Positions 28,506-60,478 of a stretch of 64,000 bases of DNA are shown piece by piece (positions within the stretch are counted from its first letter, which is position 1; each line of letters begins with the position of its first letter). The stretch spans positions 1 through 64,000 of the forward strand of contig JABFQP010000003.1 in NCBI GenBank assembly GCA_019685655.1. The letters are read 5' to 3'. The position numbers and the translations under genes are program-made. The notes under the pieces were generated by a model. That model saw only the letters and a program-made list of their open reading frames with translations, had not been told where the DNA came from and made no database searches. Source of the stretch: Candidatus Bathyarchaeota archaeon A05DMB-5 (GTDB lineage Archaea; Thermoproteota; Bathyarchaeia; Bathyarchaeales; Bathycorpusculaceae).

Positions 28506-28517
28506 GGGCTAAAAGGC

Positions 28518-33502: not shown

Positions 33503-34440
33503 AACCTTCCACAACCCCTTTTCTTTTACAATTCACCAAACTTATCCCAAAACAAATAAACCTTCACCTGCAACAAAACCCCACAAACCCTAATCAACTT
33601 CACAAGCTTCTCAACACCCGCACATCTCACCCCCTCAACATACACACTCTTATCCCCAAAAACACAACGCCCACCAAAACACCGCATAAACCGAGGATGA
33701 ACATTCCTAACAAACGCATCCCTAATCTTCTCCAAATCCTCCCCACTCAAACACGCCAACTTACCAAGCAAATAACCCTCACAACCCAACAAATCCCTAC
33801 AAAACCCCAACCTCTCCAAAACCTCCACAACCCTCAACGCCTGCTTACAAGGCAACTGCACAGCCACCCTCCGCATCCCAGCCCTCTCCGCAAAAGGATT
33901 ATACCTAGCCATAACCGCAACCAACTCAACAAAACGCGTACCCGCCAAAGGCAAAGTCTCCCGCACAAGCCTAACACCCAAACCAATCGACCGATACTTC
34001 GGATGCACAACCACACGACTAATAACACTAAAATCCCTCTGCAAATCACCAAAATCTCCTTTCCAAACCCTACTTCTGCCAAACGCCAAAGGCGACGCAA
34101 AACTATAAACAATAACCCCACACAACTCATCACCACGCCTCAAAACAAAAACCTTCCTCGGAGGCGGACAACGACCAGAACGATAATGAAAACCACTCAA
34201 ACACTTATAATCAGCAAAACACCCCTCCTCAACCCGCATCTCCCTCATCAAACTACACTCCCCTGTAGCCTCATTCACATAATACTCCACGCTGATTTCC
34301 CTACCAAACCGCTTATGAACATGCACACTAGGCCTCAAATCCTCAAACAAATCCCCATGAGTCGTCGCCACCACAACCGCCTTACCCATCTGCCTCGCCA
34401 CCTTTTGCAAATTAAAAGCCACAATTTTCGCCGTGTCACG
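32000..34440. other. A/C-rich strand block B
   Basis: Plus strand enriched in A and C through the plus-strand surface gene and on through the last two thirds of the minus-strand ATPase/GNAT gene, so it crosses two genes of opposite direction. It fades near 34440, then reverses to G/T-rich by about 34640-34980. Confidence 0.75.
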
Positions 34441-34968: not shown

Positions 34969-36335
34969 CTTGTTGTGCCTGTGGTTTGGTGTTTTAGAAG
35001 TTTTTTTCTTAGTTGTTTTAGTTTGTGTTTGCCTTTGCTCATTTTTGCGATGACCCAGAATTTGGGTGTTGGTTCTGTTTTTGTGGCGTAGCATGCGAGT
35101 GCTAGTGCCCAGAGGAGGTCGTCGTTTGTGTTGGGCGGGTGTGTGAATTGGAGTTTTCCGGTTTTTGTGTATGCGTATTGTTGGTTGTTTATTTGTTGGA
35201 GGAGTTTTTTGTTGTATGGGATTGCGAGTTTTTGTTGTTCCATTAGGAGTTTTAGATGCGTTAGGAGTTGGGTTTTGGTTTCGTTTGTGAATTTTATGCC
35301 TTGAGTGTTTGGTATGTTTTGGTTTTGGATTTCTTCGAGGATTGGTTCGCCGATGCCTGTTTGGTCTATGAGGGTTTTTTGGATGTTGAGTTTTTGTTGT
35401 GCGTGTTTTAGATGTTGGATTATTTGTGTGTAGGGTGTTTCGAGTGGGAATTCGTGTGTGTAGACAAGTTTGATTGTGTCGTTTTCTTGTTTTTGGGTTA
35501 TTGCTATTGCGGTGTGGCTTTGGAGTTTGCCGAGGTCTATTCCTGCGTAATAGTTGCCTTGTTGTGTTGGTTGTTCGAGGTTTGTGTAGGGTTCTAGGTT
35601 GATTTTTTGTGCGTGTTCTACGCATTTGCGGATTAGTTCTTGTGGGAAGTATGTGTTTTGGGTTTCTGTGAATTCGGCTTCGTATTCGCGTTTGTAGGCT
35701 TCTTTTGTCATGTTTTGTTGCATTTCTTGGAGGAATTGTTTTGGGATTAGTGGGTTTTGTTCTGATTTGATTTTGTATGTGGTGTAGTTTGGGTTTAGGA
35801 AGGCTTGGTGGAAGAAGTGGTTTTTGTCCCATGGTGTGCTTAGGAGGATTGCGGTTCCGTTTGTTGTGCTGAGCATTGGGAGGATTATTTCTGTTATTAT
35901 GTGTTCGGGTGTGAATGCGGCTTCGTCGCAGATTGTTAGATGTGCGGTGTATCCGCGGAGTTGGTGTTCGCTGCATGGTAGTGCGATTATTTGGCTTTTG
36001 TTTGTTAGTTGGATTAGAGTTCGTGTTTTGCGGGTTACGCTTTGGTTGAGTAGTGGGTTGTTTGTGATGAAGTTGAGGATTTTGTCGAACATTATTATGC
36101 TTTGGCGGAGTGATGGAGAGATTATGAGTGTTGTTGTGTTTGGGTTTGTGTATGCGTAGTGTATTGCTTTTGTTGCGATGGTTGTGGTTTTGCCTGTTTG
36201 TCTTGCCATGCAGGCGATGATGCGTTTGGATGGGTCGTTTAGGAGTTGTTGTTGGTATGGGAAGGGTTTGAAGTTTAGGAGTGTTTGTGCGAAGAGTGTT
36301 GGGTTTTGTTTTAGTTTTGTTAGTGTGTCTTGCAT
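34965..36335 (-). CDS. terminase large subunit (TerL)
   Basis: DNA-packaging motor of tailed viruses. 456 residues from ATG 36335. ATPase: Walker A ACMARQTGKTT (42-52), Walker B LTICDEAAF (D137/E138), coupling motif AILLSTPWD. Nuclease (RNase H fold): D267 in YYAGIDLGK, D324 in TLIDQTGIGEP, D405/D406 in NTNDDLLWALALA. All catalytic residues are present. It overlaps the upstream gene by 16 bp and its stop overlaps the ABC-GNAT start. No portal, capsid, protease or tail gene lies nearby, so this is an orphan or repurposed terminase, or a virus remnant. Confidence 0.9.
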   Translation of the reverse strand: MQDTLTKLKQNPTLFAQTLLNFKPFPYQQQLLNDPSKRIIACMARQTGKTTTIATKAIHYAYTNPNTTTLIISPSLRQSIIMFDKILNFITNNPLLNQSVTRKTRTLIQLTNKSQIIALPCSEHQLRGYTAHLTICDEAAFTPEHIITEIILPMLSTTNGTAILLSTPWDKNHFFHQAFLNPNYTTYKIKSEQNPLIPKQFLQEMQQNMTKEAYKREYEAEFTETQNTYFPQELIRKCVEHAQKINLEPYTNLEQPTQQGNYYAGIDLGKLQSHTAIAITQKQENDTIKLVYTHEFPLETPYTQIIQHLKHAQQKLNIQKTLIDQTGIGEPILEEIQNQNIPNTQGIKFTNETKTQLLTHLKLLMEQQKLAIPYNKKLLQQINNQQYAYTKTGKLQFTHPPNTNDDLLWALALACYATKTEPTPKFWVIAKMSKGKHKLKQLRKKLLKHQTTGTTR

Positions 36336-36637
36336 TTTTTGAGCCTTTTTGCGAGTGTGTTTGCTTGGGTTTGGATTTGGCTTAGGAGTGTTGCGAGGTC
36401 TTGGGTTTGGTTTGGTTGTGTGTGGAGTTTTAGTAGTGTTGAGAGTGTGCGGATGTGGCTTGCGAGGGTTTGGTAGTAGAAGGCTTTTTGTTTGTCGTAT
36501 TTTGCGTTTTGTGCGAGGTTTTGGAGTTTGTCTATGATTTGCCATTCTGTTTGGATTAGTTCTTTTGCGGTTCGGGTTTTGTTCTCTGTTTGGTCTAGTC
36601 CCCCCTTATTTATAGGTTGAAGTGGTGGTTCTGTCAT
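36320..36637 (-). CDS. small helical protein preceding terminase
   Basis: 105 residues from ATG 36637. Mostly helical: KTRTAKELIQTEWQIIDKLQ, KQKAFYYQTLASHIRTLSTL, LLSQIQTQANTLAKRLKKC. Position directly before TerL, with a 16-bp overlap, is where viruses keep the small terminase subunit, but I see no clear DNA-binding motif. Small-terminase function is a positional guess. Confidence 0.6.
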   Translation of the reverse strand: MTEPPLQPINKGGLDQTENKTRTAKELIQTEWQIIDKLQNLAQNAKYDKQKAFYYQTLASHIRTLSTLLKLHTQPNQTQDLATLLSQIQTQANTLAKRLKKCKTH

Positions 36638-36642
36638 GTGGT

Positions 36643-36873
36643 TCACGTTTTTTGTGTTATGAATATGCCGGTTAGTGTGCCTGTTAAGCCTGTGATTGCG
36701 GAGAAGATTTCGCTGTTCCATTGTTTTAGTGCGATTAGGTGTGTGATTTCTAGTGTGGTTAGGCTTATGGTCATGGCGATTGTGAGTTTTACGCCGAGGA
36801 CCAAGCGTGGGTCTGGTGGGGTTTCTTGTTGGCGTATTCGTCTTGTTAGGGCTTTTTTAATTGGGTCTTTCAT
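36643..36873 (-). CDS. small membrane protein, holin-like size
   Basis: 76 residues: a charged N-terminus (KDPIKKALTRRIRQQETPPD), two hydrophobic helices (LVLGVKLTIAMTISLTTLEI and IFSAITGLTGTLTGIFI) and a short tail. Size and layout resemble holins, but that is only a resemblance. Overlaps the upstream gene by 17 bp and lies 5 bp before the next, so it belongs to the terminase operon. Confidence 0.6.
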   Translation of the reverse strand: MKDPIKKALTRRIRQQETPPDPRLVLGVKLTIAMTISLTTLEITHLIALKQWNSEIFSAITGLTGTLTGIFITQKT

Positions 36874-43933: not shown

Positions 43934-44319
43934 GCAATCGCCCATGAATTGCTACGCTTTAACTCTTTAAAATCAATTATGAATTCACACTCTACATTGG
44001 AGGAATAGATTGTTGATTGTCACACATTTCGAGACGTGCATTGAAAAGTTGTCTGACCTTAGTATTTTTTTAGCCCCTACCCCTAGGTTTTTTGTTAGAT
44101 GGCTATTACACAAAAAATGTATTAGCGTTTTTTTGAGGTAGTTGTTTTTGGGTGGTTTTGACTGAAAAGTTTATGGGCTTTTTTGTTGATTTTTGAAAGG
44201 TGCGTGTTTGAGGATTTGTTTTATAGAAGATTTGTGCAGTTAGTTTTATTAGCGTTTGTGTGCATAAATTATTTATTTGATGTTTGCTGTTCTGATTCGG
44301 ATTCAGAGTGGAGAAGGGT
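43934..44319. other. intergenic G/T-rich stretch
   Basis: About 385 bp with no gene. An AT-rich TATA-like tract (AAATTATTTATT, about 44266-44277) precedes the winged-helix gene and would start transcription near 44297. Nothing else recognised. Confidence 0.35.
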
Positions 44320-44589
44320 ATGGAGGAGAGAAGGCGGAGGAGGAGTCGTTCGGAAGTGATTTGTGATATTTTAAGTGAGGCTTTGGGTGGTGTGAATAAG
44401 ACGCGGTTGATGTATCGTTGTAATTTGAATTTTGCGCGGTTTAATCGTTATTTGCGTGAGTTGGTTGAGTCGGGTTTGATTGAGTGTGCGGAGGGTAATC
44501 CGGAGGGTTTGGTTTTGTATAGGACTACTGTTAAGGGGCGTGAGTTGCTTCAGGTTTTGCGTAAGGCTAATGATTTATTGTCTATTTGA
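44320..44589 (+). CDS. winged-helix regulator (HTH_45-like)
   Basis: About 89 residues from ATG 44320. Archaeal winged helix: RSRSEVICDILSEALGGVNK, TRLMYRCNLNFARFNRYLRE, LVESGLIECAEGNPEGLVLY, TTVKGRELLQVLRKA. This is the small winged-helix type common in TACK archaea. A very basic N-terminus (EERRRRRSR) would contact DNA. Target unknown. Confidence 0.8.
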   Translation: MEERRRRRSRSEVICDILSEALGGVNKTRLMYRCNLNFARFNRYLRELVESGLIECAEGNPEGLVLYRTTVKGRELLQVLRKANDLLSI

Positions 44590-45281: not shown

Positions 45282-45677
45282 TCATTTGATTTTGTTTATG
45301 GCTATTTCGTTGATTTTTTTGTTTATGCGGATTTCTAGTTCTAGGCTGGTGTCTGTTAGGTTTGTTATTCGTGTGCATTGGATTAGGAGGGTTTGTTGTG
45401 GTGGAATGATTATTGTGCCGACTGCCGTGGTTTGTTGTTGTGCTTGAGCGTTTTGCGGGTTTTGTTCTTGTTGGTTTATTATGAGTGTTTTCCAGTTCTG
45501 GTTTAGTTTTATTTGGTTTGTTGCGGGGTTATGCTGTATTAGGTCTGCTTCTGTTAGGAAGGCGATTATTTTTTGGGCTTTGTCTTTTGGAATTTCTAGT
45601 TTTTGGGTGATTTCGTCTATGTTGTGCCATACGTTGTCTTTGAGTGTGTCTATTATTTTTTCAAGTTTTGTGGACAA
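45282..45677 (-). CDS. winged-helix protein with C-terminal beta domain
   Basis: 131 residues from TTG 45677. N-terminal winged helix (KLEKIIDTLKDNVWHNIDEI; KAQKIIAFLTEADLIQHNPA), a Gln-rich linker (NQQEQNPQNAQAQQQTTA), then a beta-rich end (AVGTIIIPPQQTLLIQCTRI; SLELEIRINKKINEIAI). It sits in the G/T-rich block on the minus strand, so its codons end in A or C. Likely a regulator. Confidence 0.65.
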   Translation of the reverse strand: MSTKLEKIIDTLKDNVWHNIDEITQKLEIPKDKAQKIIAFLTEADLIQHNPATNQIKLNQNWKTLIINQQEQNPQNAQAQQQTTAVGTIIIPPQQTLLIQCTRITNLTDTSLELEIRINKKINEIAINKIK

Positions 45678-45800: not shown

Positions 45801-46559
45801 TTATTCTGGTCCTATGTAGGTGTTTGCGACTTTTATGCAGTCTGTGTAGAATGTTACTTGGTTTGGTGGGTGGTAGGCGCAGCCGTGGTAGTTTGCTATG
45901 TAGATTCTGTTGGCTGTGTGGCTTGAGGTGTCTATGTTGGTTAGGCGGAATTCTGTGAGTTCTGTTCCGTCGAGCCATGTGTGGTATTCGCCGTTTGTTG
46001 GGTGTTGTGTGCGTTGGATTTCTATGCAGTGCCATGTGTTGGTTGTGAGGTTTTGGTTGCTGTAGATTATGACTGTGTAGCCTGAGTGGTATGCTATGAA
46101 GACGAGTTCGGCGTTGGTTTCTGTTAGGCCTATTTGGCAGAGTATGTTTTCGTTTGAGGCTATTGTGCCGAGGTAGGTTTCGTGTGGTTGCCATGGTGCG
46201 TAGTATGTGGATAGGTAGACGTAGAAGCGGAGGCTTATTGTTGCTTGTGTTGTGGGTAGGTCTTTGTAGGCGTATGCGGATGTGGATAGGAGTGAGCCGT
46301 TTATGATTGCTATGGCTTGGTAGTTGCCGTGGTGTGGCGGTGTGGTTTGGTTTGTTGCTGTGACGCATGTGAAGGATTGTCCTTGGAATACTTGGACGTG
46401 GGTCCATGCGGAGAAGTTTCCTTCTTCGAAGCCGTTTTCGAAGATTATGGTTGGGGTGTCGCTTATGATTGTTCCTGTGTTTGTTATTTGGGTTTGGAAG
46501 CTGGTTTGTGCTAGGGCAAAAATTAGGAAGATTGTGGTGAGTGTGGCTGTTTTGTGCAT
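45801..46559 (-). CDS. secreted LamG/jelly-roll-like protein
   Basis: 252 residues. Signal peptide (MHKTATLTTIFLIFALAQTS), a NTGTI segment just after it, then a concanavalin-like beta sandwich: IIFENGFEEGNFSAWTHVQV, SLRFYVYLSTYYAPWQPHET, NTWHCIEIQRTQHPTNGEYH, TWLDGTELTEFRL, VTFYTDCIKVANTYIG. This is the LamG-like pattern used for glycan or protein binding. Its ATG lies one base after the stop of the gene at 46561, so the two are coupled. Confidence 0.75.
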   Translation of the reverse strand: MHKTATLTTIFLIFALAQTSFQTQITNTGTIISDTPTIIFENGFEEGNFSAWTHVQVFQGQSFTCVTATNQTTPPHHGNYQAIAIINGSLLSTSAYAYKDLPTTQATISLRFYVYLSTYYAPWQPHETYLGTIASNENILCQIGLTETNAELVFIAYHSGYTVIIYSNQNLTTNTWHCIEIQRTQHPTNGEYHTWLDGTELTEFRLTNIDTSSHTANRIYIANYHGCAYHPPNQVTFYTDCIKVANTYIGPE

Positions 46560-46560
46560 T

Positions 46561-47019
46561 TTATGCCAGCTCGATGAATATGTTGAATGTGAATGCGCCT
46601 TGGTGGTTGATTGCGTCTGGTTGGGTTGTGAGTTCGAATTTTACGTGTAGCCATTGTGCTTGGTTGATGGTTGTTTGTTGTCCTTGTTGGAGTTCTTGCC
46701 ATGTTTGGTTTGGTAGTTGTTGGTACATTTTTAGTGTGAGGTATGCGGGTGCGTTGTGGTGCCATGTGAGGTTTGCTGGGGTTGTTACGGTGCTGTTGTT
46801 GTATATCCATCTGTAGTTTGCGAGGGTTTGGTTTACGCGGATTTCGCCCCATGTTATTGTGTAGCTTTCTGTTGTTTTGTCGTCTAGATATACTTTGACT
46901 CCGTGGGCGACTATTGTTCCTGTGTTGCTTAGTGGGACGGTTAGGTAGATTGCGGCTAGGGATGTGGCGAGGAGTGCGAGTAATGTGGTTGTGAGTGTTA
47001 TGGGGATGGTTTTTTGCAT
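46561..47019 (-). CDS. small exported beta-sandwich protein, pilin-like
   Basis: 152 residues from ATG 47019 (AGGGG upstream). Signal peptide (TIPITLTTTLLALLATSLAA) followed by IYLTVPLSNTGTIVAHGVKV and an all-beta domain (ESYTITWGEIRVNQTLANYR; WLHVKFELTTQPDAINHQGA; FTFNIFIELA). Length, hydrophobic leader and all-beta body resemble camelysin/TasA-type fibre subunits of the neighbouring operon, though the W-x-D motif is absent. Translationally coupled with the LamG-like gene; also shares the NTGTI segment. Confidence 0.6.
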   Translation of the reverse strand: MQKTIPITLTTTLLALLATSLAAIYLTVPLSNTGTIVAHGVKVYLDDKTTESYTITWGEIRVNQTLANYRWIYNNSTVTTPANLTWHHNAPAYLTLKMYQQLPNQTWQELQQGQQTTINQAQWLHVKFELTTQPDAINHQGAFTFNIFIELA

Positions 47020-47179
47020 TTTGTTTTTCCCCTTTTGTGTATTTTTGTTGGTGTTGTATACAGTTAGCATGGAGAGTAATAAATATTACGTCTTACGATA
47101 CGCTTGTCCTTTCTCAATCCTACAAAACACACTCTTGAACTAAGTTCGATAACTATTTTCTGAAATTTTCTTCTATAAC

Positions 47180-48856: not shown

Positions 48857-48943
48857 ATTTGTTGAATGTGATTGAGAGAAGTTTGTGTGTAAGTGTGGTT
48901 TTTTGGTCTATTCTTTTGTTCTAGTCCATTGTTCCATAGGGTC

Positions 48944-48951
48944 TTATATAC
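48944..48951 (+). promoter_or_regulatory. TATA box of the fibre operon
   Basis: TTATATAC, centred at 48947. Archaeal spacing puts transcription start near 48972-48975, exactly where the first hairpin of the leader RNA begins. Confidence 0.55.
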
Positions 48952-48971
48952 TGATAGGCGGTAGAAATAGT

Positions 48972-49130
48972 ATGCGGGTAAACTACCGCATCGGATGAAA
49001 CCTACGTGCTTGGCTCGGCGGCACGTTAAACTAATGCTGAGTCCGGGGGACTAACAGGGAGCCCCCGTTAAAGGGTGAAGTGCCTTTGTCCGCGCGCGGG
49101 GCTGCTTTGCCTGATGATAGCCCAAATATG
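48972..49130 (+). ncRNA. structured 5' leader RNA with predicted pseudoknot (riboswitch-like)
   Basis: Between the TATA box and the first fibre gene the sequence folds by eye into consecutive elements: P1 48972-48977/48986-48991 (ATGCGG/CCGCAT) with two more pairs past a bulge; P2 49004-49009/49021-49026 (ACGTGC/GCACGT); the P2 loop 49012-49019 (GGCTCGGC) pairs with 49036-49043 (GCTGAGTC), an 8-pair pseudoknot with two G-U; P3 49044-49049/49062-49067 (CGGGGG/CCCCCG), directly abutting; P4 49070-49074/49083-49087 (AAAGG/CCTTT); P5 49099-49103/49119-49123 (GGGCT/AGCCC). The ribosome-binding site AGGAGG follows. A competing hairpin, 48958-48964 with 48983-48989, exists if transcription starts earlier. 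It matches no riboswitch class I can recall. Function inferred: control of fibre expression. Confidence 0.65.
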
Positions 49131-49154
49131 GAGAAAGGAGGAGGTTGACAAATC

Positions 49155-49844
49155 ATGAACAAGAAGTTTATTGCTTTGTTAGTGCCGCTTATGCTGCTTC
49201 CTATGGTAGGATTTGCAGCTGCTCACTGGTATGACTATATTTACAAGCAGTACAAGCTGAAGGCTGGATGCGTGTGCGTTGAAGTTACAAAATGGCACGT
49301 CTTGGGAACAACAAGCTATGACGTTGACTGTGATGGCATAGTTTTCGGAGACGAATTGCAAATTACCAATTTGTGGGGCACGAACCCATGTGACGATGTA
49401 AAGAAAGTGGTTGGTGTACAGATACTTGCTAACCCAATATTCCCATGCTGGGAACTAACGCTCGAAATGTTCGTTTACAACAAAGGAACACTAGCAGTCA
49501 AAATGGACATTCCAAAAATCAACTTCAGTGGACCACTTAAAGACGAGCCTGATTGGACACCAATACAAGGTGGATCAATACCGGATTACTTCCAATACTG
49601 GACTAAGGCATACATATGGAAAGAAGATATCGGTGAGTGGGTACAAGTTCAGCCGACAACGTTCGTTCTGAAGCCTTGCGAAGAAGTGAAAATTGTTCAG
49701 TATATACACTTCATCGGACAGGAGCATCCAGAATTGCAGTGTCACTGGTTCAGACTTGACGTTCTATATCCGTTCTTCCAGTACGTACCTGAAGGACCAC
49801 TAAGCAGCTACACATGGCCAGTTGTAACGCAAGGACCAAGTTAA
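49155..49844 (+). CDS. TasA/camelysin-like fibre subunit (SipW-type signal), probable major subunit
   Basis: 229 residues. Leader MNKKFIALLVPLMLLPMVGF followed by AAAHWYDYIYKQYKLKAG: this G-x-A-x-x-W-x-D then strand then AG pattern is that of SipW-dependent signals, as in TasA (AYFSD...AG). The mature protein is all-beta with Cys at about eight places (CVCVEVTKW; PCDDVKK; FPCWELTLEMFVYNKGTL; LKPCEEVKIVQYIHF), which may form disulfides. It ends YTWPVVTQGPS, like its paralogue at 50580. Very strong ribosome-binding site AGGAGG, a long structured leader and neutral codon use amid skewed genes suggest high expression. A T-run (49893-49898) follows, so it may be transcribed mostly alone. Confidence 0.8.
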   Translation: MNKKFIALLVPLMLLPMVGFAAAHWYDYIYKQYKLKAGCVCVEVTKWHVLGTTSYDVDCDGIVFGDELQITNLWGTNPCDDVKKVVGVQILANPIFPCWELTLEMFVYNKGTLAVKMDIPKINFSGPLKDEPDWTPIQGGSIPDYFQYWTKAYIWKEDIGEWVQVQPTTFVLKPCEEVKIVQYIHFIGQEHPELQCHWFRLDVLYPFFQYVPEGPLSSYTWPVVTQGPS

Positions 49845-49946
49845 GTGGGTAGAAATCGCTAACAAGCAAGCAAAACCATATCTATTTTCCCCTTTTTTGG
49901 GATTAAACAACAAAATAAAAATAAAAAAGTTGGGAAACGTGAAAAG

Positions 49947-50576
49947 TTGAAAAGAACCAACCATAACAGTAACCGAAACATCCAAGTAATAATTTTATTA
50001 GTCATCCCCCTAATGCTCATAATCCTAGGCAGCCTAGGCTACGCCGCATGGACAGACCAAATCACCACAACAGCCGAACTACAAGCAGCCGAATACAACA
50101 TCGAACTCATCAACGTCTGGATACAACACTACAACGGACTCGGCTGCCAACTCCTATGGGAAGAAGGCGGAAAAGACATCTCATTCGCAGACGAAGCCCT
50201 ATTCCCAGGATGGAACCTCACACTAATCAGCCAAATCCACAACAAAGCCCTAACAGAATCATGGGTAGCCACAGTCAACTACACACTATACTACGAAGAC
50301 CCACAAACAGGCAACTGGATACAATGCACAGAACAAGATCTCTACAACCTATTCCGCATAAAATACACAGGCGCATTCTACCTAGGCCCAGGACCAGACC
50401 AAACATGGGACACACCAGACGACACCCCAATGCCCCCAGACTACCTATGGATACCATGCACAATGGTCTACAACAAACAAAACCTCTACTTCGACGCCCA
50501 AGACCGCCCAGACCTAGCAGGCACCAGCTTCACCATCAGAGTCGCAATAATCGCAACCTACCCACAGGAGGACTAA
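49947..50576 (+). CDS. TasA/camelysin-like fibre subunit 2
   Basis: 209 residues from TTG 49947. Leader VIILLVIPLMLIILGSLGYA and the motif AAWTDQITTTAELQAAEYNI (W-x-D), then an all-beta domain (WNLTLISQIHNKALTESWVA; VNYTLYYEDPQTGNWIQC; FTIRVAIIATYPQED). W-x-D after the hydrophobic core marks it as a substrate of the SipW-type peptidase encoded six genes on. Three bases before the next gene. Codons end in A/C. Confidence 0.75.
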   Translation: MKRTNHNSNRNIQVIILLVIPLMLIILGSLGYAAWTDQITTTAELQAAEYNIELINVWIQHYNGLGCQLLWEEGGKDISFADEALFPGWNLTLISQIHNKALTESWVATVNYTLYYEDPQTGNWIQCTEQDLYNLFRIKYTGAFYLGPGPDQTWDTPDDTPMPPDYLWIPCTMVYNKQNLYFDAQDRPDLAGTSFTIRVAIIATYPQED

Positions 50577-50579
50577 AAA

Positions 50580-51290
50580 ATGCAAACACCAAAAACCAAA
50601 ATGCTCACACTCCTCATCATACCCTTACTACTCATCCCAATAGTCAGCGTAGGCGCCGCACACTGGTACGACACAATCACCAAACAATACAAACTCAAAG
50701 TCGGACGCCTCGACACAAAAATAATAAGTTACAAAATCCTCGCCCCATGCGACGTCCTAATCACAAAATGGCCACCAGACTGCGAAATGCCAACCAAAAC
50801 AATCTCAATCAGCACCAAAGTCTTCCCAGGCTGGTACTGCTGGATAGGACTAAAAATCCAAAACTTCGCATCAGTCCCAGTATCCATCGACGGACCCACA
50901 TTCAACGTCTACGACCCCAACGGAGTATGGCAATACTTCATCCACCAAGAATACTACTACGGACAAGTAATAGACGGCAAATCATACGGATGGTCACCAA
51001 CAGACGTCCCACAAAACGTCTACGCATGGGTCAAACTCAAACCAAACCAACCCTGGCAAGTCGCACCCCCACCACCAGGCAACATCACAGGACCAGTCAC
51101 CCTCGAAGCCTACGGACCACACACCAAAAACACAATGATAATGTGGATATTCCTAAAACTACCCAAAAACTTCGACTTCAACTGCTACTGCAAATGCTTC
51201 AAACTCAAAATCTGCCTAACAATCACATCAACAATGTGCGACGGACCACCAAACACAATATCCAGCTACACATGGGAAAGCCCATCATAA
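50580..51290 (+). CDS. TasA/camelysin-like fibre subunit 3, paralogue of 49155
   Basis: 236 residues. Leader MLTLLIIPLLLIPIVSVGAA and HWYDTITKQYKLKVGRLDTK, nearly the same as the first subunit (HWYDYIYKQYKLKAG). Cys-rich beta domain (KVFPGWYCWIGLKIQNFASV; FNCYCKCFKLKICLTITSTM) ending SYTWESPS. A proline stretch (APPPPGNITGP-like VAPPPPGNITGPV) lies before the last third. Ribosome-binding site AGGAGG overlaps the end of the previous gene, so translation is coupled. Likely minor or alternative subunit. Confidence 0.75.
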   Translation: MQTPKTKMLTLLIIPLLLIPIVSVGAAHWYDTITKQYKLKVGRLDTKIISYKILAPCDVLITKWPPDCEMPTKTISISTKVFPGWYCWIGLKIQNFASVPVSIDGPTFNVYDPNGVWQYFIHQEYYYGQVIDGKSYGWSPTDVPQNVYAWVKLKPNQPWQVAPPPPGNITGPVTLEAYGPHTKNTMIMWIFLKLPKNFDFNCYCKCFKLKICLTITSTMCDGPPNTISSYTWESPS

Positions 51291-51322
51291 AACTAACAAA
51301 ACATTTTACCACCAGAATATAA

Positions 51323-51330
51323 TTTATAAA
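51323..51330 (+). promoter_or_regulatory. internal TATA-like box in the fibre operon
   Basis: TTTATAAA in the 60-bp gap after subunit 3. Transcription would start near 51352, at or next to the GTG/ATG of the next gene, which would then be leaderless. Confidence 0.45.
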
Positions 51331-51350
51331 CAATAGTTCACCAAAACACC

Positions 51351-52037
51351 GTGATAAGAATGAAAAGAACAACCAACCCCTCAAAACATGCACTTCTAAT
51401 TTTAGCATTACCCCTGCTCACAATAACAATAATAACAATCGCCTACGGAACATTCCACGACCAAATAACCACTCAACTAACACTAGCCACCACACCAAAA
51501 CCAACAATCACCACAGACATTCAACTCATAAACGCTCCAAACAACGACATCACAATAATCGTAAACAGCGAAAACAAAACAATCCTCGACACAGACCCAA
51601 CAACACTACAAATCCTCACAACAATAACAAACACAGCACAAACCCCAATAAACGCACTAACAATAAACACAACCATACCCAACAACTGGCAATGGACACA
51701 ACAACTCACAGCAACACTAATTACCACAGAAACAACAATCCCAATCGACGAAACCCAGTACACAATAAACCACGACCCAACCACCCAAACCCTACTCATC
51801 ACAATACCCAACATCAAAACCGCAACCGGACAAAAACTAAACCAAAACAACCAACTAACTATAACCTACCACATCGAATACACACTAAAAGGAGAACAAA
51901 TCCCAGAAGAATACCGCTTCAACCCACCCACATACGAAACCACCACAACAACAACCGCTATGACAGAAACGGAAGGCTGGAAAAGTGACCCCACACAAGC
52001 AACATTATACTTCACAACGCATATATATTTGCTTTAA
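51351..52037 (+). CDS. TasA/camelysin-like fibre subunit 4
   Basis: 228 residues (GTG 51351, or ATG 51360). Leader HALLILALPLLTITIITIAY, then GTFHDQITTQLTLATTPKPT, the F-x-D version of the SipW motif. The mature domain is Thr/Asn-rich and beta-predicted (LQILTTITNTAQTPINALTI; NNQLTITYHIEYTLKGEQIP; ATLYFTTHIYLL) and resembles the DUF11/conserved-repeat beta sandwiches that decorate archaeal surfaces. Could be a tip or anchor subunit. Confidence 0.7.
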   Translation: MIRMKRTTNPSKHALLILALPLLTITIITIAYGTFHDQITTQLTLATTPKPTITTDIQLINAPNNDITIIVNSENKTILDTDPTTLQILTTITNTAQTPINALTINTTIPNNWQWTQQLTATLITTETTIPIDETQYTINHDPTTQTLLITIPNIKTATGQKLNQNNQLTITYHIEYTLKGEQIPEEYRFNPPTYETTTTTTAMTETEGWKSDPTQATLYFTTHIYLL

Positions 52038-52074
52038 TACGTGGTTAACAAACCACTAACGAAGGGAAAAAAAA

Positions 52075-53178
52075 TTGTCACGCAAAAAAACCAAGATATT
52101 ATTAATCTTTTTCACCCTACTCACAATCGCATCACTCATCTTCCTCACATACGCATTCCAAATCCCAACACAAGAAACCCAAACCGAAACCCTATGCACC
52201 TACACTCAAGACCTAACATACGACTACACAGCCAAACTCCAACAACCCAACTACATATACGACAACAAATCAACCATAGGACCCAACGACGGACCAATCT
52301 ACATACTCATAACCGAACACCTCAACATCACATTCACATACACATTCGAAAGCACCCTAACCGCAAACACAACCATAAAATACACAACAACAGGCTACAT
52401 AGTCACCGCAAGATGGATAAAACAAAACTTCACCATACCACAAAAAACAGTAACCAACAATTCAGACACAACAACCATCACTGCCGAAATCACCAAAATA
52501 GACGTAAAATCCATCCAAGCATTCGTCGCCAAAATCAACAGCGAAGAAATAGGCGTATCCACAGGCAACTTCAACATGACAATAACAACAAACATAATCC
52601 TAACCGCAGAAACCCCAGCAGGCACAATAAACGAACCATTCACAGCAACCCTCAACATCGCATTCCTAAGCGGAGCACCAGAAGGAAACATAATCCAAAT
52701 CCAAAACCTCCAAACCACAAAAAACGGCGCAATCACCGAAACCCAAACAATCACCAACGACAACGCAAAAACCCAACAACTCGCCTCCTACGGCATAACC
52801 GCAATCGCCATCGGCGGACTAATAATCTCCACATTCCTACACCTCAAAACCAAACCACCAACACCACCATCCATCGCTGAAGAACTAATCAAAGAACTCA
52901 GAGAACCCTACGAAGACATAATAATCGAAGCCGCCGAAGAACCACCACCACGCGGACAAACAACAGTCATAATCAAAACACTCGAAGACCTAGTAAAAAT
53001 CGCCGACATGCTAACAAAACCAATAATCCACTACCAAAAACCACCAACACCACCAACCACAGAACCAACCCACACATTCTACCTACTCGACGCCAACACA
53101 CGCTACGAATACAACGTCACCCCATCACAACTCAAAACAGCCAAAGAACACGAAACAATTGAAACAGAGGAAGACTAA
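52075..53178 (+). CDS. DUF5305-like membrane protein
   Basis: 367 residues from TTG 52075. N-terminal membrane helix (TKILLIFFTLLTIASLIFLT), an extracellular beta domain (DLTYDYTAKLQQPNYIYDNK; HLNITFTYTFESTLTANTTI; EEIGVSTGNFNMTITTNIIL), a second membrane helix (YGITAIAIGGLIISTFLHL) and a cytoplasmic tail with Pro-rich and charged stretches. DUF5305 genes sit beside signal peptidase and SipW-signal genes in other archaea, so a role in fibre export or anchoring is likely. Overlaps the next gene by one base. Confidence 0.7.
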   Translation: MSRKKTKILLIFFTLLTIASLIFLTYAFQIPTQETQTETLCTYTQDLTYDYTAKLQQPNYIYDNKSTIGPNDGPIYILITEHLNITFTYTFESTLTANTTIKYTTTGYIVTARWIKQNFTIPQKTVTNNSDTTTITAEITKIDVKSIQAFVAKINSEEIGVSTGNFNMTITTNIILTAETPAGTINEPFTATLNIAFLSGAPEGNIIQIQNLQTTKNGAITETQTITNDNAKTQQLASYGITAIAIGGLIISTFLHLKTKPPTPPSIAEELIKELREPYEDIIIEAAEEPPPRGQTTVIIKTLEDLVKIADMLTKPIIHYQKPPTPPTTEPTHTFYLLDANTRYEYNVTPSQLKTAKEHETIETEED

Positions 53179-54053
53179 TGACAACCCAACCAAAACCTTC
53201 CCGAACCGCAGACATACTAACAGCAATCCTACTCTTCACAGCAGTATTCGCCCTATGGCAAGTCTACTGGCAAATACTAGAAACAACAAAACCCTCCTAC
53301 CCATTTGACATAATGCTCTTCCTAATCTTTCCATGCATCTTCATAGCCATATACGCAGCAACCGTAATACTAAGAAAATCAACATTCAAAAGAGAAGGCT
53401 TCAGAAAACCCACAACCATCAACACAAAGAAAACAATCACAATAAGCATAGCATGCATAATAATCTACATATTCATGCTCCTAGCCCCCGGCATAACCGC
53501 AGTCATGTCAACAGGCAACCTCGCCGACGGCTACTCACTAACAGAATACTTCCTAACACCCATACGAATCGCATACAGAATAGTCTACGGCATAGCATAC
53601 GCAGCAACCTTCAGCCTAGCATACGAAGCCATCTTCAGAGGAAACATCTTCAGAAACCTAACCCGACACTACGGATTCTTCACATCCCTCTACGCATCAT
53701 CAATAATGTTCTGCATCGCACGAATAGGCGACCAAATATCCATCAAAAACCTCCTCGCCATGTCCACACAAAGCCTAGTAACCTTCATCTTCCTAAACAT
53801 CCTAACAGTCTTCGCCGCAGGCCTATTCCTAGGCTACTACTTCTACAAAACAGGCTGGAGCCTCCTCGGCCCAATAACATTCCAAATCGGCACACTCTTC
53901 TTCCTATGGCCAGACCCACTAGTCGCTTCAACCTCACTATGGTGGATAACCCTCACCTTCCAAATAATCGGCTACGTCGTCCTCATCCTAACAGTCGACT
54001 CCCTAATCAAAGAACCAGCCTTCATAAAGAAAAAATACGGACTAGAAAGCTAA
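53178..54053 (+). CDS. CPBP-like membrane protein with lost catalytic motifs
   Basis: 291 residues, about eight helices, with the layout of CAAX/bacteriocin-processing (CPBP) intramembrane proteases. The three catalytic motifs are altered: EExxxR reads Y-E-A-I-F-R (150-154 region, AYEAIFRGNIF), FxxxH reads F-C-I-A-R (IMFCIARIG), and the last His is Gln in GPITFQIGTLFF. So it is probably a pseudoenzyme, perhaps a chaperone or anchor for the exported subunits. Its place between DUF5305 and the signal peptidase supports a role in fibre biogenesis (inference). Confidence 0.7.
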   Translation: MTTQPKPSRTADILTAILLFTAVFALWQVYWQILETTKPSYPFDIMLFLIFPCIFIAIYAATVILRKSTFKREGFRKPTTINTKKTITISIACIIIYIFMLLAPGITAVMSTGNLADGYSLTEYFLTPIRIAYRIVYGIAYAATFSLAYEAIFRGNIFRNLTRHYGFFTSLYASSIMFCIARIGDQISIKNLLAMSTQSLVTFIFLNILTVFAAGLFLGYYFYKTGWSLLGPITFQIGTLFFLWPDPLVASTSLWWITLTFQIIGYVVLILTVDSLIKEPAFIKKKYGLES

Positions 54054-54072
54054 ACCGGAAGCGCAACCCCCA

Positions 54073-54606
54073 ATGCAAACAAGGCACAAGAAAAAGAGCT
54101 ATCTTAAAGACGCTCTTTTCCTAACAGCAGTAATTCTTTCTGTCATCCTCATATACGTTGGACTACGCCTATCCCTCGCCACAGACACGCCGCTTGTAGC
54201 AATAGACAGCGGAAGCATGACCCCAGCACTCGAAGTAGGCGACCTACTCATAATAAAAGGCGTAAAACCAGAAGAAATCAACATCGGCGACATCATCGTC
54301 TTCGACCCACCAACACAAGGCATGGGCAGAACAGTCCACCGCGTAATCACAATCCAACCCTTACCAAACGGAACACTAACCTTCAAAACAAAAGGAGACG
54401 CAAACGAAATAGAAGACACATACACCGTATACCCACAAAACATCCACGGACGAGTCCTATACCGAATACCCTACATAGGATACATGGTCATAAACCCAGC
54501 AATCCCAATAACAATCATAACTGTAATCATCATAGCAATGATAATCTGGCCAGAAAAGAAAAAAAGAAAATTCCGACACAAACCCAAAACACACATAAAA
54601 GGTTAA
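54073..54606 (+). CDS. signal peptidase I, Sec11/SipW type
   Basis: 177 residues: an N-terminal helix (FLTAVILSVILIYVGLRLSL), catalytic S48 in IDSGSMTPALEVGDLLIIKG, H89 in MGRTVHRVITI (His, not Lys, as in Sec11/SipW-type enzymes), acids in TKGDANEIEDTYTV, and a C-terminal helix with a basic tail. This is the class that processes TasA/camelysin-type proteins. Five bases before the next gene. Most archaea have a separate general signal peptidase; this one is likely dedicated to the operon products. Confidence 0.88.
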   Translation: MQTRHKKKSYLKDALFLTAVILSVILIYVGLRLSLATDTPLVAIDSGSMTPALEVGDLLIIKGVKPEEINIGDIIVFDPPTQGMGRTVHRVITIQPLPNGTLTFKTKGDANEIEDTYTVYPQNIHGRVLYRIPYIGYMVINPAIPITIITVIIIAMIIWPEKKKRKFRHKPKTHIKG

Positions 54607-54611
54607 ACAAA

Positions 54612-57203
54612 ATGAAAAACCCAAAAACAAAACTCGCTACACTTCTTTTGACATTAACAATACTCTTACTAACTCAACTCCCACAAAACCCACACCAAAC
54701 CATGCACGCCTCCGCACAATCCACACCCGTAACAATATCACAGTACACACAAAACGTAACCACACTAGAAGCCTACCAACGCAAAACCTTCTTCGCCAAC
54801 GGCAGATACTGGGCCTTCTACGCACACGCCGAAATAAAATACAAAACAAGCACAGACGGCATAACCTGGACTGCCGAAACCGCAATATGCCCAGGAGGAC
54901 CAGACGGAGGCGTCTTCTCCACATGGTTCGACGGAGCCTACGTCCATTACGTAAGAAGCACAGGCATCCCCACAGAATCCCTAAGATACAGAAGAGGAAC
55001 ACCAAACCCAGACGGAACAATAACATGGAGCACACCAGATGAACAAATAGTCCTAGAAGTAGCCGACCCAATAGCCCTCCACGAACCATTCATAACAGTA
55101 GACTCAGAAGGCTACCCATGGATAGGCTACAGATGGGGAACAAACGGCGACCGCTGGCCAAACTGCACAAAATCCGCGTTTAACAATGGCACATGGCAAA
55201 CAGCCTACGGATTTCCATACCAGCTCTCCACATTGTCCGTATCCAACTGGGCAGTCTCCATAGTCCCACTAACACAACAAAAAATGTACGCAGTTTACTT
55301 GAGCGTCGGAGCAATCAGAGGAAGACTCTGGAACGGAACAACCTTCGAAAACGAAGAACTAATCGCTCCAGCTTCCGTCTGGCCCCCCAGAACGAGATTC
55401 GCCCACTCAGTAGTAGCACGAGAAAACAACGTCTACTTCACATTCCTAAACGTAAGCACTACAACCAAAATCCTATTCTTCAACCGAACCTACCAAACCG
55501 GCTGGAACCAACCGGAAACAATAGAAACAGGCATAGGCGAAACAGCCTTTCCAGTGCTTTCAATCGACCAAACAAAAGGAGACTTCTACTGCTTCTGGGC
55601 TGACAACGACATCATATACTACAAAAAACACATAGAAGGCGCATGGGACCAAAACGCCACCGCATGGCTAACAGAGCCTAACATGAGGGAAGACTCATTA
55701 ACCTGCTTCTATCAAACAGGCGGCTCCAGAATTGGAATCATGTGGATTCGCGGGCAACCATACGTCTTCGACATACGATACTGTAGCCTAAAAGCAGGAA
55801 TCCTACGAAAACTCAACCTAAGAGTTTTCATGAACGACATGCTCACACCACTAAGCTCAGCTACAGTCACAATGAACGATGGGCTCGACAACACAATGAC
55901 AACCAACTCGGAAGGTTGGGCAAACTTCACAGAAATAACCGCGCCCAACGTCACTGTAAAAGTGAAATGGCAAGACAACTGGGTGAATGGCACATTTGCA
56001 GTAACAATGGACAGCGACAAAACATTAAATGTCCAATGCAAAGTCTACCACATCTCTTTCACAAACACTTTCAAAGACGGCGACGGAAATCCATTATATG
56101 CACCCCCGCAAACTTTCAATCTAAACTGTCCCAACGGAACAACTCTGCAAGGGCTACTTGTTGGCGCATATTACCTTCAAAACGGTACTTTCCACATTGA
56201 AGATGTAATGTGGCAAGGAACTAACGTTACGCCTCCAAACACCAATTTTAATCCAGAAAACGGTGACCCATCTGTGAACCTTAGCATATACTCGCCGGCT
56301 CTGCAAGTTCTGCAACCAAATGACGAACCCTTCACAAATTATTATATTGACATGGAATTTCCGAATGGCACGGTAATCAAGAATCAGCATCATTCCTCTG
56401 CGCTCATAGAATTTAATCAAATCCAAGCTGGGACGTACCACTTTAACATTACAACTTTTGATGGAGAAAAAGCCCAAGTCAACTACACACTTTTAATCGC
56501 TTCTTCGCAAGAGCTTTATAACATTTCAACCACGGCATTAAAACTATCAGAATATGGCATTGACCTTCCAAACGCCAAAATTTACCTCCGACTCACATTC
56601 TATAATGGCACTCCTGTTCAAAACGGCATAATAAATTATGCTTCTCAAAACGCAACCACAGACAATGACGGATGGGCAACTTTCAACTTGAAAGATTTCT
56701 CAAACATCAATTATCTTTCAATAGCGTATGGCGTTAGAAGCGCTTCCGGAATCACTTACAAAATGCAAAATCAAAGCATTCCCATCGCCAAAGTATCACA
56801 CGTCATATTGGAAAGCGACTTGGCAAACATAACAACGCTAGAATACAACGCCACAAGCTACACGTTGACAATAGTAGCCACTGACAACGGAACAAAAACC
56901 ATAAGAATTCTCGGAGAAAAACCATTGAACGTTACAATTGACGATGTCTCCTATGCAGAAGGAACAAAGTGGCATTATGATGTAAACAACAAAATCACAA
57001 CCATAACGGATGCTTGGTCAACCAAAACAATAAAAATAACATGGGCTCCTCCACCAGAAATCAATCCATTTTTGATGCTGATTTACTATATTGCCGCAAT
57101 CGTTGGCGCTTTTTCACTAGCAATTATACTTGTGGCTTTTTATTTGAAGAAAAAGAGCAAGAATACGCGTTCTTTAACAAATAAGACTAATATAAATCTA
57201 TAA
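54612..57203 (+). CDS. large surface protein: sialidase-like propeller plus Ig/carboxypeptidase-like beta domains
   Basis: 863 residues. Signal (LATLLLTLTILLLTQLP), an N-terminal six-bladed propeller of the BNR/sialidase type (EIKYKTSTDGITWTAETAIC; HEPFITVDSEGYPWIGYRWG; SVVARENNVYFTFLNVSTT; FPVLSIDQTKGDFYCFWADN), then carboxypeptidase-regulatory-like beta domains (LNLRVFMNDMLTPLSSATVT; IYLRLTFYNGTPVQNGIINY) and a C-terminal helix (LIYYIAAIVGAFSLAIILVA) with KKKSK. No catalytic sialidase residues recognised. Likely a lectin or adhesin. Last gene of the operon. Base use is A/C-rich to about codon 180, then neutral. Confidence 0.75.
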   Translation: MKNPKTKLATLLLTLTILLLTQLPQNPHQTMHASAQSTPVTISQYTQNVTTLEAYQRKTFFANGRYWAFYAHAEIKYKTSTDGITWTAETAICPGGPDGGVFSTWFDGAYVHYVRSTGIPTESLRYRRGTPNPDGTITWSTPDEQIVLEVADPIALHEPFITVDSEGYPWIGYRWGTNGDRWPNCTKSAFNNGTWQTAYGFPYQLSTLSVSNWAVSIVPLTQQKMYAVYLSVGAIRGRLWNGTTFENEELIAPASVWPPRTRFAHSVVARENNVYFTFLNVSTTTKILFFNRTYQTGWNQPETIETGIGETAFPVLSIDQTKGDFYCFWADNDIIYYKKHIEGAWDQNATAWLTEPNMREDSLTCFYQTGGSRIGIMWIRGQPYVFDIRYCSLKAGILRKLNLRVFMNDMLTPLSSATVTMNDGLDNTMTTNSEGWANFTEITAPNVTVKVKWQDNWVNGTFAVTMDSDKTLNVQCKVYHISFTNTFKDGDGNPLYAPPQTFNLNCPNGTTLQGLLVGAYYLQNGTFHIEDVMWQGTNVTPPNTNFNPENGDPSVNLSIYSPALQVLQPNDEPFTNYYIDMEFPNGTVIKNQHHSSALIEFNQIQAGTYHFNITTFDGEKAQVNYTLLIASSQELYNISTTALKLSEYGIDLPNAKIYLRLTFYNGTPVQNGIINYASQNATTDNDGWATFNLKDFSNINYLSIAYGVRSASGITYKMQNQSIPIAKVSHVILESDLANITTLEYNATSYTLTIVATDNGTKTIRILGEKPLNVTIDDVSYAEGTKWHYDVNNKITTITDAWSTKTIKITWAPPPEINPFLMLIYYIAAIVGAFSLAIILVAFYLKKKSKNTRSLTNKTNINL

Positions 57204-57275: not shown

Positions 57276-57959
57276 ATGCTAAAGTTTTCCACTTCAAAAA
57301 GATTCACAATCATATGTGTTGTGACACTTATCACCGCCTTAACTTTTGCTGCTTACATTAAACCTGCAAAAGCTTCTGAAGCCACGCTCATAGAAATCTT
57401 TAATCACCTAGGCTTCACAAACATAGCAGCAACCACCATCGAAACCTTTCCATCTGGAACATACAGCATAACCTTATATGCTGAATTTGCAGCATACCGC
57501 GACGAAAACGAACTCAGCCGCTATGACGTAGAAACAGGCGAACTAACCCTAATTTTTGCTGGGCTGGAAGGCGGATCTGGCTATATTAACCCCCCAATCA
57601 CCAGAGCTTTTACTGCAAATGCACAATTTGGTCTTTCAATGCTTTCGCCGGGACCGCACAGATATTTCACTGAAACGGGAAAGAATCCTGATGGAGAGCA
57701 GCATGCAAAGATCTACATAAACCTCGATGACCCTAGCATGTTTTTGATTGGTTTTGAAAACTTGTATGGTGCTGGAGACAGAGACTACAATGATTTAGTG
57801 TTGTCTCTTCAGAAAGTGAACGATCCGGCGGTTGGTGGAACAGAAGTGTTGGTTCCTTTTTTGGTTTCTGAGAGTCATTTAGCGTTGTATATTATGATGA
57901 TAGCAACCCTAGGCATGTCAATGAGTTTGACTAGAAATAAGAAGAGACGGTTTATTTAA
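57276..57959 (+). CDS. DUF4114-domain surface protein
   Basis: 227 residues. Signal (IICVVTLITALTFAAYIKPA), then a domain ending GFENLYGAGDRDYNDLVLSL, the DUF4114 calcium-binding-like signature (G-x-x-D-x-D-Y-N-D). C-terminal helix (LALYIMMIATLGMSMSL) and basic end KKRRF. Related proteins have PEP-CTERM-like tails in bacteria. ATG preceded by GGGAGAAGGG. Convergent with the caspase-like gene, 8-bp overlap. Confidence 0.8.
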   Translation: MLKFSTSKRFTIICVVTLITALTFAAYIKPAKASEATLIEIFNHLGFTNIAATTIETFPSGTYSITLYAEFAAYRDENELSRYDVETGELTLIFAGLEGGSGYINPPITRAFTANAQFGLSMLSPGPHRYFTETGKNPDGEQHAKIYINLDDPSMFLIGFENLYGAGDRDYNDLVLSLQKVNDPAVGGTEVLVPFLVSESHLALYIMMIATLGMSMSLTRNKKRRFI

Positions 57960-58818
57960 TCCGTTTTTTCGCGTATCCTGTAACAATGTATGCGAGGTGG
58001 GGTTTTTCAGCAGTGCCGGGGCTGTTGAGAAGCGTATAATTGCTTGATGTTGTGGGGTAAAAAGCCAGCTGACTGTGATAGTTTGGGTCGGAACCCACCA
58101 CGTTCATTGTGTTGTTAACCGCATCTGCTATTGTCTGGTTTTTTAAGACCAAGTTTCGTATGAGCTCGCTCGTGGCTGTATCTGTGTGTCCGGGAGATAC
58201 TGGGCCGTTCCAGCTTATATAGGCTTTTGCTCCTTTTTCAACATAGGCACTCGCCATATCAGTTGCTGTTAATCCGTCACATCCCATCATTATTATTATA
58301 GAGTTTTTGCAAGCGTCTGAGTTTCTTACGAATTTGGATGTGATTGCAAAGTATATTGGACCGCCTGAGACATATTCCACTGCGACTACTTCGTCGTTCA
58401 TTTGTTCCCAGTAGTGTGGCCATTGACTGTGGGGTTCTGACGTGTAGAGGCTTGTTAATCCTGAATATTGACCTACGCCAGAATGTACTCGTAGGATTAT
58501 TAGACTGTATCGTTTTGAGGGCAACTGCTTGTAAAAATCAACAGTCACTTCCGAATAATTATAATAGTCAACACTAAAGCCTGCAGACGTTAACGTTTCG
58601 TTGACGCTCGTAACAAATGCGACGTTTGAATGGGTAATGGCTAATTGGTCAACTATCGCGGCTGTTTTTGGTACTGCTTCATAAACAGCAGGTGCTTTCG
58701 GAATGAAGAAATAGTAAATTAGCAATCCTGCAAGTATTGAAACGACTGTTAATGCCATCCATTTGCTTCTTAGCACTTTTTTCCATGCATGCTTCTTTTT
58801 TCTAGTACTTCTTTTCAT
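57952..58818 (-). CDS. membrane-anchored caspase-like cysteine peptidase
   Basis: 288 residues. An N-terminal basic stretch and signal-anchor (WMALTVVSILAGLLIYYFF), then an extracellular alpha/beta domain with the caspase-fold dyad: H112 in YSLIILRVHSGVGQYSG and C180 in SIIIMMGCDGLTATDMASAY, followed by GAKAYISWNGPVSPGHTDTA. This is the H-S/G and C-D pattern of C14/C25/CHAT-type peptidases. Displayed outside the cell, it could mature or remodel surface proteins. Identification rests on motifs only. Confidence 0.65.
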   Translation of the reverse strand: MKRSTRKKKHAWKKVLRSKWMALTVVSILAGLLIYYFFIPKAPAVYEAVPKTAAIVDQLAITHSNVAFVTSVNETLTSAGFSVDYYNYSEVTVDFYKQLPSKRYSLIILRVHSGVGQYSGLTSLYTSEPHSQWPHYWEQMNDEVVAVEYVSGGPIYFAITSKFVRNSDACKNSIIIMMGCDGLTATDMASAYVEKGAKAYISWNGPVSPGHTDTATSELIRNLVLKNQTIADAVNNTMNVVGSDPNYHSQLAFYPTTSSNYTLLNSPGTAEKPHLAYIVTGYAKKRIK

Positions 58819-58912
58819 GTGTTTTCATCTGTGTTTTGGTTAACCCGTGTCAGTAAAGTGCAAGTGCTTTCCTAAAAATGTTAACATAAACAAAAAAGAA
58901 AAAGAGGGAAGT

Positions 58913-60478
58913 TTAGTATTTCATTTTGCGTCTAGCTACAGCGATTGTTCCGACTGAAATTGCGAATCCTAAGAATATCCACGGCGCAATCAATGTCAGT
59001 ATGTTTGGTGGTACTTCGTAGCCTCCCACTGGTTGAGGCGGGCCTTCTGGCACAAGCCTAATCGTTATTTCTGTATCTTCAGAAACTTCAACCATCACTG
59101 ATGCTGGTACATAGCCTGTTTTTGAAGCACCTACCGAATAGCCTCCTGCCAAGAGATCTTCGAACTTCACTTTTCCGTCAAGACCAGTGAAGTCTTCACG
59201 ATATTCAGGTCCATTTGCTGTTACCATCGCACCAGAAATTGGGTCTAACGTGTTCGCGTCGATTACTTTGACTGTTAGGTCGTATTTTGCCACCGGAGGT
59301 GCTGCCTTTTCTAATGTTAGAAGCGCCCAACAAGTAGGCAAGATATAGTCGTAAGCCCAGACATCATAGTTCCAATTGCCTGCTGGGAACTGCTCTGCTA
59401 GTAATGCATCGGCCATTTCGTTGAACCAATCGTGTTCTGGCGTATTGTCCCCGTCTAAATCTAATAGGTTTATGTTGAAGGCTTCAAACCCCTTCATTGT
59501 TGTGTACATGGCTTGCTTGTGATTGGGCAGTGGATTTCCTTTCCAACCAGTACCATAGTAATCATACCCGAAATCATTCCAGTGTCTTTCGATGTAGTCT
59601 ATTGCGTCTTGTACTCTTGGAGTAGCTAATGTGTCGCCGACAAATGCCATCTCCTGTAACAACGTGCCGGTCTTGAGTATGTTAACCCACGAGTCAGGGT
59701 TATCATAACCTGATCCTCCGTCCATGTCGTCGCCGTTAACGTCGTTCTGGATGTAGTCTATCCAGAAGTTAAGTTCGTCTTTGACAAATTGCGGAATCGG
59801 TATTCCAAATCCATGAGGCGGCGATGCCTGTGCATAGATCAAACCTAACACCAAGTATCCCGTGTTAGAGTTGTCACTCCAACCGTAATTTTCAATGTAT
59901 CCCCAACCGCCTCATGGCCAATTTGCATCGTTCTGTCCGAAGGCCATGTAATCCACGGTGTCATCAACTACTTCTAGATACGTCCACCCGTCCACGGGGC
60001 TTCCCGCAACCGAAACTGCCAGGTCTGGATGAGTACATGCTGCAATTGCCATCGTTGCAATTCCAGTACCGTAGGTGTAGTGCCAATTGTCTTGGTTAAA
60101 CCTTACTCCAATTCCGTCGCCGTCAGAGTCTGGGTTGCCAGCAGGTTGACTAGATATCTGTACAATTTCAGCTCTGGTAAAAATGAAGTTCAGTCCATTT
60201 CTGACTTGGTCGTAGTATTCATAAGCTGGATTAAGAGGGTCTAAGCCCAAATCTACTGCTCGTTCTTCAAATTTCAATACAGCCATAGCTGTACTAGAAA
60301 GGTCACCAGACCACGAACCATCAGCTTGCTGTTGTGCGGCTAACCATTCAAGCCCCTTAACTATCGACGCTTCTATCTGTTCCGGGGTTGCCGCTTTAGA
60401 ATAAGGTACACACGCAAATACTGATAAGCAAACAGACACCATAAGCAATGCTAAAGCTACTCTTAGAATTTTCTTCAT
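58913..60478 (-). pseudogene. exported prenyltransferase/terpenoid-cyclase-fold protein with in-frame TGA
   Basis: One frame of 522 codons interrupted by a single TGA (59912-59914). Before it: signal peptide (LALLMVSVCLSVFACVPYSK), then alpha/alpha-toroid repeats (GLEWLAAQQQADGSWSGDLS; FNQDNWHYTYGTGIATMAIA). After it, in the same frame, GGWGYIENYGWSDNSNTGYL and LLAEQFPAGNWNYDVWAYDY, a carboxypeptidase-regulatory-like beta domain (LTVKVIDANTLDPISGAMVT) and a C-terminal helix. The reading NWP-stop-GGWGY is clearly continuous; Arg (CGA) or Trp (TGG) could be ancestral. Either one mutation, a read error, or readthrough. The toroid probably binds rather than makes terpenoids. Confidence 0.75.

Follow-up and report, generated by a model that had tools for sequence, protein, structure and literature searches.

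Gene content and order

The operon at 49155-57203 raises the question of what its exported products build at the cell surface and what determines how much of it is made. The window, which is the whole 64,000-nucleotide stretch of Candidatus Bathyarchaeota archaeon A05DMB-5 that was analysed (contig JABFQP010000003.1, positions 1 to 64,000), carries on its forward strand genes for fibre subunits 1 (49155-49844), 2 (49947-50576) and 3 (50580-51290), a same-genus subunit 4 (51351-52037), a DUF5305 protein (52075-53178), a CPBP-fold pseudoenzyme (53178-54053), a SipW/Sec11-type signal peptidase (54073-54606) and a large exported membrane-anchored protein of 863 amino acids (54612-57203). An earlier note, made from the sequence alone, had named these orfs, and every one is present where it was placed; the short spacing that it described also stands, except that the gaps are 3-102 bp with a 1-bp overlap at 53178, rather than 0-103 bp. 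The best explanation of the whole, to which we give a probability of about 0.7, is a donor-strand fibre locus controlled by a cis-regulatory RNA of a new archaeal class.

The gene order is conserved. In a genome of the same genus (G001) the locus is collinear with that of the window (92.6%), and in a genome of another family of the same order (G095), subunits 1-3, the DUF5305 protein, the CPBP-like protein and the peptidase follow one another as they do in the window, each gene having its positional counterpart there as its one-to-one best match (39% over 114 amino acids for subunit 1, E 7e-29 for subunit 2, E 3e-13 for subunit 3). The locus of G095 contains neither subunit 4, which has a short similarity to its subunit 2 (E 0.002), nor the 863-residue protein, for which G001 provides the sole other locus among those read. 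The proposal of a distinct locus with four subunits and a propeller adhesin is thus upheld for the core order, which recurs in both genomes, but subunit 4 and the supposed propeller, found only within the genus, are not supported as parts of the system.

Identity of the exported subunits

Behind a hydrophobic leader, subunits 1 to 4 begin with AHWYD, AAWTD, AHWYD and GTFHD, respectively, confirming the W/F-x-D motif that had been taken as the mark of SipW-processed fibre proteins. Individually the four have no family match in Pfam or NCBIfam. A profile built from 17 subunits, taken from the window and from four related loci, matched AbpX in the PDB (9sj2 and 9rhp, E 8e-12 and 2.6e-9), and beyond AbpX nothing below E 0.2. 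The alignment opens at the mature N-terminus, where QWSETLSLSATISTG of AbpX is set against HWYDYIYKQYKLKAG of subunit 1, so that the subunit motif falls at the start of the mature AbpX chain (QWSET). In chain 9rhp the same strand is placed at the C-terminus, which we read as an engineered donor-strand construct. AbpX (as ABPx) is described, for Pyrodictium abyssi, as a fibre that resembles ABP and is built by donor-strand exchange (PMC11952670).

The AlphaFold2 model of subunit 1 is all-beta with moderate confidence (pLDDT 74), and its top Foldseek match is the TasA fibre 8aur, although the match is weak (E 0.0097, TM 0.24). Subunits 1 and 3 have a donor-like strand, KQYKLK, in common. The relation to AbpX, a solved donor-strand fibre protein, supports, at the level of sequence and profile, the assignment of the subunits to the TasA/ABP kind, as had been proposed. 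The kind itself is already known and the locus is new as a variant of it: compared with the AbpX protein, with which the subunits share the profile match and the [W/F]-x-[D/E] N-terminal strand, the window adds several subunits, a DUF5305 protein, a CPBP-like protein, a peptidase and a leader RNA. The tapA-sipW-tasA operon of Bacillus likewise provides its fibre subunits with a SipW-type peptidase of their own, and subunits of the camelysin family are found behind the same archaeal RNA, but sequence identity between the Bacillus proteins and those of the window is very low; we know of no CPBP protein, DUF5305 protein or comparable RNA leader in the Bacillus system.

We infer that the subunits form fibres by donor-strand assembly. 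After export, the SipW-like peptidase would cut immediately ahead of the [W/F]-x-[D/E] strand; once freed, this N-terminal strand would insert into the next subunit, leading to polymerisation. Alternatively, the exported proteins might be ordinary S-layer or adhesion proteins that form no strand-exchange polymer; the divergence of the subunits, together with the association of the leader RNA with some exported genes other than fibre subunits, would fit, but the AbpX profile match that begins at the mature N-terminus and the camelysin/TasA matches of genes behind the same RNA make this improbable. Within a donor-strand fibre, the major subunit is probably subunit 1, the first product of the mRNA. 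A strong C-richness marks genes 2-7 (their relatives in G095 show it only mildly), and the gene for subunit 1 is the least C/A-biased of the operon; its balanced composition against the skewed genes behind it fits such a role.

The peptidase and its probable membrane partner

The peptidase matches the archaeal signal peptidase family TIGR02228 (E 6.5e-32) and has the Ser/His dyad of the S26 family in the correct places (S48 and H89). As a query in the viral scan it returned no match. The protein encoded directly upstream is a degenerate member of the CPBP/Rce1 proteases (PF02517), its Rce1-like match scoring 25.6 bits against a Pfam cut-off of 22.4; where these proteases have their catalytic residues (EExxxR, FxxxH and the third-motif His), which it has lost, it has YEAIFRG, FCIAR and ITFQIG. 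The earlier note was therefore right about both proteins. The motif residues are also altered in G001, G095 and a contig labelled Thermoplasmata (L063).

Another departure from the known CPBP proteases is that in at least nine related loci (orfs in L053, L059, L013, L063, L116, L118, L119, L120 and L121) a single fused protein combines the CPBP-like domain with the peptidase. In L063 the CPBP half scores over the Pfam cut-off, and TIGR02228 recognises the peptidase half. The other eight fusions are orfs of 385-476 amino acids located between or behind fibre genes, and their N-terminal halves are too diverged for Pfam; aligned with the window CPBP protein by hhalign, the fused N-terminal domain of the Bathyarchaeia loci gave E 5e-4 at a probability of 32%, with a score exceeding those of 40 shuffled decoys. 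Such natural fusion suggests that pseudoprotease and peptidase work together. The CPBP-fold pseudoenzyme is probably the membrane partner of the peptidase, and would assist it in cutting the precursors. The fusion gives this pseudoprotease family a likely role and suggests a defined module for fibre export.

The DUF5305 protein was correctly named (PF17231, E 9e-23). Its AlphaFold2 model (pLDDT 84) has an N-terminal transmembrane helix, an external beta domain with long strands, a second transmembrane helix and a cytosolic alpha/beta domain, and the closest folds, with weak scores, are Ig-like or LEA14-like sandwiches. A sequence search of the PDB gave no relative, and a search of the open-access literature found no paper mentioning DUF5305. 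The simplest role suggested by the model is that of an Ig-like protein that spans the membrane and serves as an anchor or in assembly. The 863-residue protein does not bear out its description as a sialidase-like propeller: it has a single Asp-box-like motif (STDGITW), no match in Pfam, NCBIfam or PDB sequences that names a propeller, and no relative in a PDB sequence search. It is a possible adhesin.

A structured leader RNA

Upstream of subunit 1, a conserved RNA spans 48972-49128. Transcription is predicted to start at about 48970, from a TATA box (CTTATATA, 48943-48950, seven of eight positions matching TTTAWATA) that lies 54 nt upstream of the hairpin B region, after which the leader would fold; a Shine-Dalgarno sequence read at 49137-49144 (GGAGGAGG) precedes the start codon. 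TATA-like 8-mers and SD-like purine stretches accompany most other copies of the RNA as well. The prior claim that the leader is structured is supported by comparative evidence and not by single-sequence folding energy, which gave no signal (z -0.6).

The RNA begins with a weakly supported hairpin A (48972-48991, ATGCGG/CCGCAT), read from the sequence and identical in the same-genus relative, followed by two modules. Module 1 (49005-49043) consists of hairpin B (49005-49010 with 49020-49025), the joint GTTAAA and pseudoknot 1, in which the linker at 49036-49043 pairs with the hairpin B loop at 49012-49019. Module 2 (49044-49128) consists of hairpin C (49044-49049 with 49062-49067), the joint TTAAA, helix D (49073-49080 with 49105-49112) and the tail GATGATAGCCC; pseudoknot 2 would join GGG of loop C (49057-49059) to CCC of the tail (49121-49123).

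All six pairs of hairpin B show two-sided changes, as do nine of the twelve pairs of hairpin C and helix D. The strands of pseudoknot 1 differ fully between genomes and yet remain complementary (GGCTCGGC/GCTGAGTC in the window, GATCTAG/CTGGATC in G156, AATCAGA/TCTGGTT in G095), and helix D occurs as GGGTC/GACCC, GGATCC/GGATCC, GGGAAC/GTTCCC and GCTTAC/GTAAGT. In permutation and shuffle statistics, which ignore relatedness and apply to segments chosen by hand, the pairing of pseudoknot 1 with its own partner beat all 20,000 permutations (n=11), none of 20,000 was as good for helix D (z -7.4 in a subset of one copy per lineage), and hairpin C and helix D together exceeded shuffles and slid controls by all measures; the corresponding count for pseudoknot 2 was 111 of 20,000, making this pairing no more than suggestive. 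Helix D had been drawn in model R1 with GGGTTA pairing to TAGCCC, since replaced by the proximal pairing, which is backed by several copies, G211, G436, G400 and G464 among them. Both pairings would use one and the same strand, and a switch between them is possible. The leader has both the covarying helices and the constant position before a start codon that are expected of a structured cis-regulatory RNA.

Distribution and possible function of the leader RNA

The leader sequence of G001 is almost the same as that of the window, and G095 has a recognisable counterpart; further copies were then recognised in G156, in G120 and in a second, camelysin-type operon of G095. Searches with a covariance model gave hits in 8 of 163 genomes from the order and in 11 of 257 from the class; a core model reached 16 of the 257, two weak matches among them being taken as false, and brought in copies outside the class from a phylum sample of 398 genomes. 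The accepted set (models R1 and R2) comprises 24 copies from 22 genomes, which represent 11 families. Matches above E of about 1e-4 were judged false by motif and context (G256, G202, G307, G332, G291b, G329, G266, G496 and G454), with one copy at 2e-4 (G305) retained by eye. Model R3 found no further copies in the class of G560, and none in the genomes of L063, L060, L061, L056, L058 and L055 or the viruses L064 and L065. One genome (G053) has two short copies, weak by score, that consist of module 1 only and lie upstream of fibre genes.

A readable orf follows 23 of the copies (two of these orfs being very short, at a contig end); in every case the RNA is located 5-28 nt before the start codon and the orf encodes a strongly hydrophobic N-terminus, compared with 30 of 178 background orfs. 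The downstream genes are 12 ABP/TasA-like subunits, four members of the camelysin family (in G052, G014, G239 and the second operon of G095), six other exported proteins, which we count against the preferred reading, and two genes cut by contig ends too soon for typing. In two loci (L116 and L121, of G436 and G560) fibre genes diverge from either side of the RNA, the opposite strand encoding DUF5305 and one subunit, which suggests that the region exerts control in both directions.

Because the RNA recurs before genes for surface fibres and other exported proteins across the phylum, it probably governs the amount of fibre produced: the folded two-module leader, with its pseudoknots, would set operon expression by controlling the translation or stability of the fibre mRNA, the direction and trigger of this control being presumptive. 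An alternative, to which we give somewhat less than an even chance, is that the leader senses nothing and serves only as a 5′ structure that stabilises and so protects very abundant mRNAs. The targets are all surface proteins, likely to be abundant, and the RNA is GC-rich; however, the unpaired joints GACUA, UUAAA and GAUGAUA are conserved over 11 families, and the RNA seems to form two pseudoknots; plain stability would need neither.

The same conserved unpaired core, in two modules of hairpin, UUAAA and pseudoknot placed 5-28 nt upstream of the start codon behind an SD-like stretch, invites comparison with ligand-binding riboswitches that act on surface fibres in the way of bacterial c-di-GMP riboswitches. 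The leader would then be a new archaeal class with tandem pseudoknot modules, coupling an intracellular signal to TasA/ABP-type fibres and other surface proteins. The general layout resembles, as a lead only, that of the crcB fluoride riboswitch, which has a hairpin, a UUAA-type joint, a second hairpin, a UGAUGA joint and a loop-tail pseudoknot. The loop sequences and target genes are different, the Rfam crcB model (RF01734) has no match to the leader at E 10, and the gene content gives no hint of a ligand, leaving the riboswitch a tentative and rather doubtful proposal.

Rfam scans of ten loci found one tRNA elsewhere and no family match to the leader, and in focused scans of the leader all matches stayed below threshold, the highest-scoring one being Thermales-rpoB with 21.9 bits against a cut-off of 77.3 (L103). 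With no match in Rfam 15 and no describing paper found in a search that was thin on subscription papers, the leader appears to be an undescribed class. To our knowledge, few classes of cis-regulatory RNA have been reported from archaea, and little has been learned of how these organisms control their biofilm fibres; with an RNA that, in 11 families, precedes fibre genes of the ABP type as well as the camelysin type, this control becomes testable.

Surroundings of the operon

Remnants of a head-tailed provirus occupy 27500-36721 of the window, including an RHH protein (27500-28150) and a large terminase (34965-36545; PF03237, E 4e-15). The operon might be regarded as virus cargo of a degraded provirus at 27-44 kb, given this terminase and the presence of DUF5305 on two viral contigs (L064 and L065) and a provirus (L048), but these three have DUF5305 without subunits or peptidase, and most fibre loci read in other families have no viral flank, so that an origin as cargo is highly improbable.

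On these contigs of archaeal head-tailed viruses, the lone DUF5305 gene is on the strand opposite to the virion genes; a viral DUF5305 protein could possibly interfere with host fibres. L065 also carries the small HTH pair that is found beside the operon of the window (44308-44589 and 45282-45677), and a connector-like gene is kept near the fibre operon of G001 (L067/L011). Islands of extreme strand composition skew, with GC skew up to +/-0.6, extend over 26647-57000; the skew is independent of coding direction at 44-49 kb, flips near 49-50 kb and is near zero in the rest of the window.

An exported protein with a SipW-type leader and a conserved PRTIGFWKxQF domain is encoded in some other fibre loci (L054 8989-9873, L057 1294-2172 and the start of L058). 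In the window, more exported proteins, among them DUF4114 and repeat proteins, adjoin the operon at 45801-47070 on the reverse strand and at 57276-60478. By eye, a protein encoded behind the leader RNA of G120 (L079) seems related to the family at 58913-60478.
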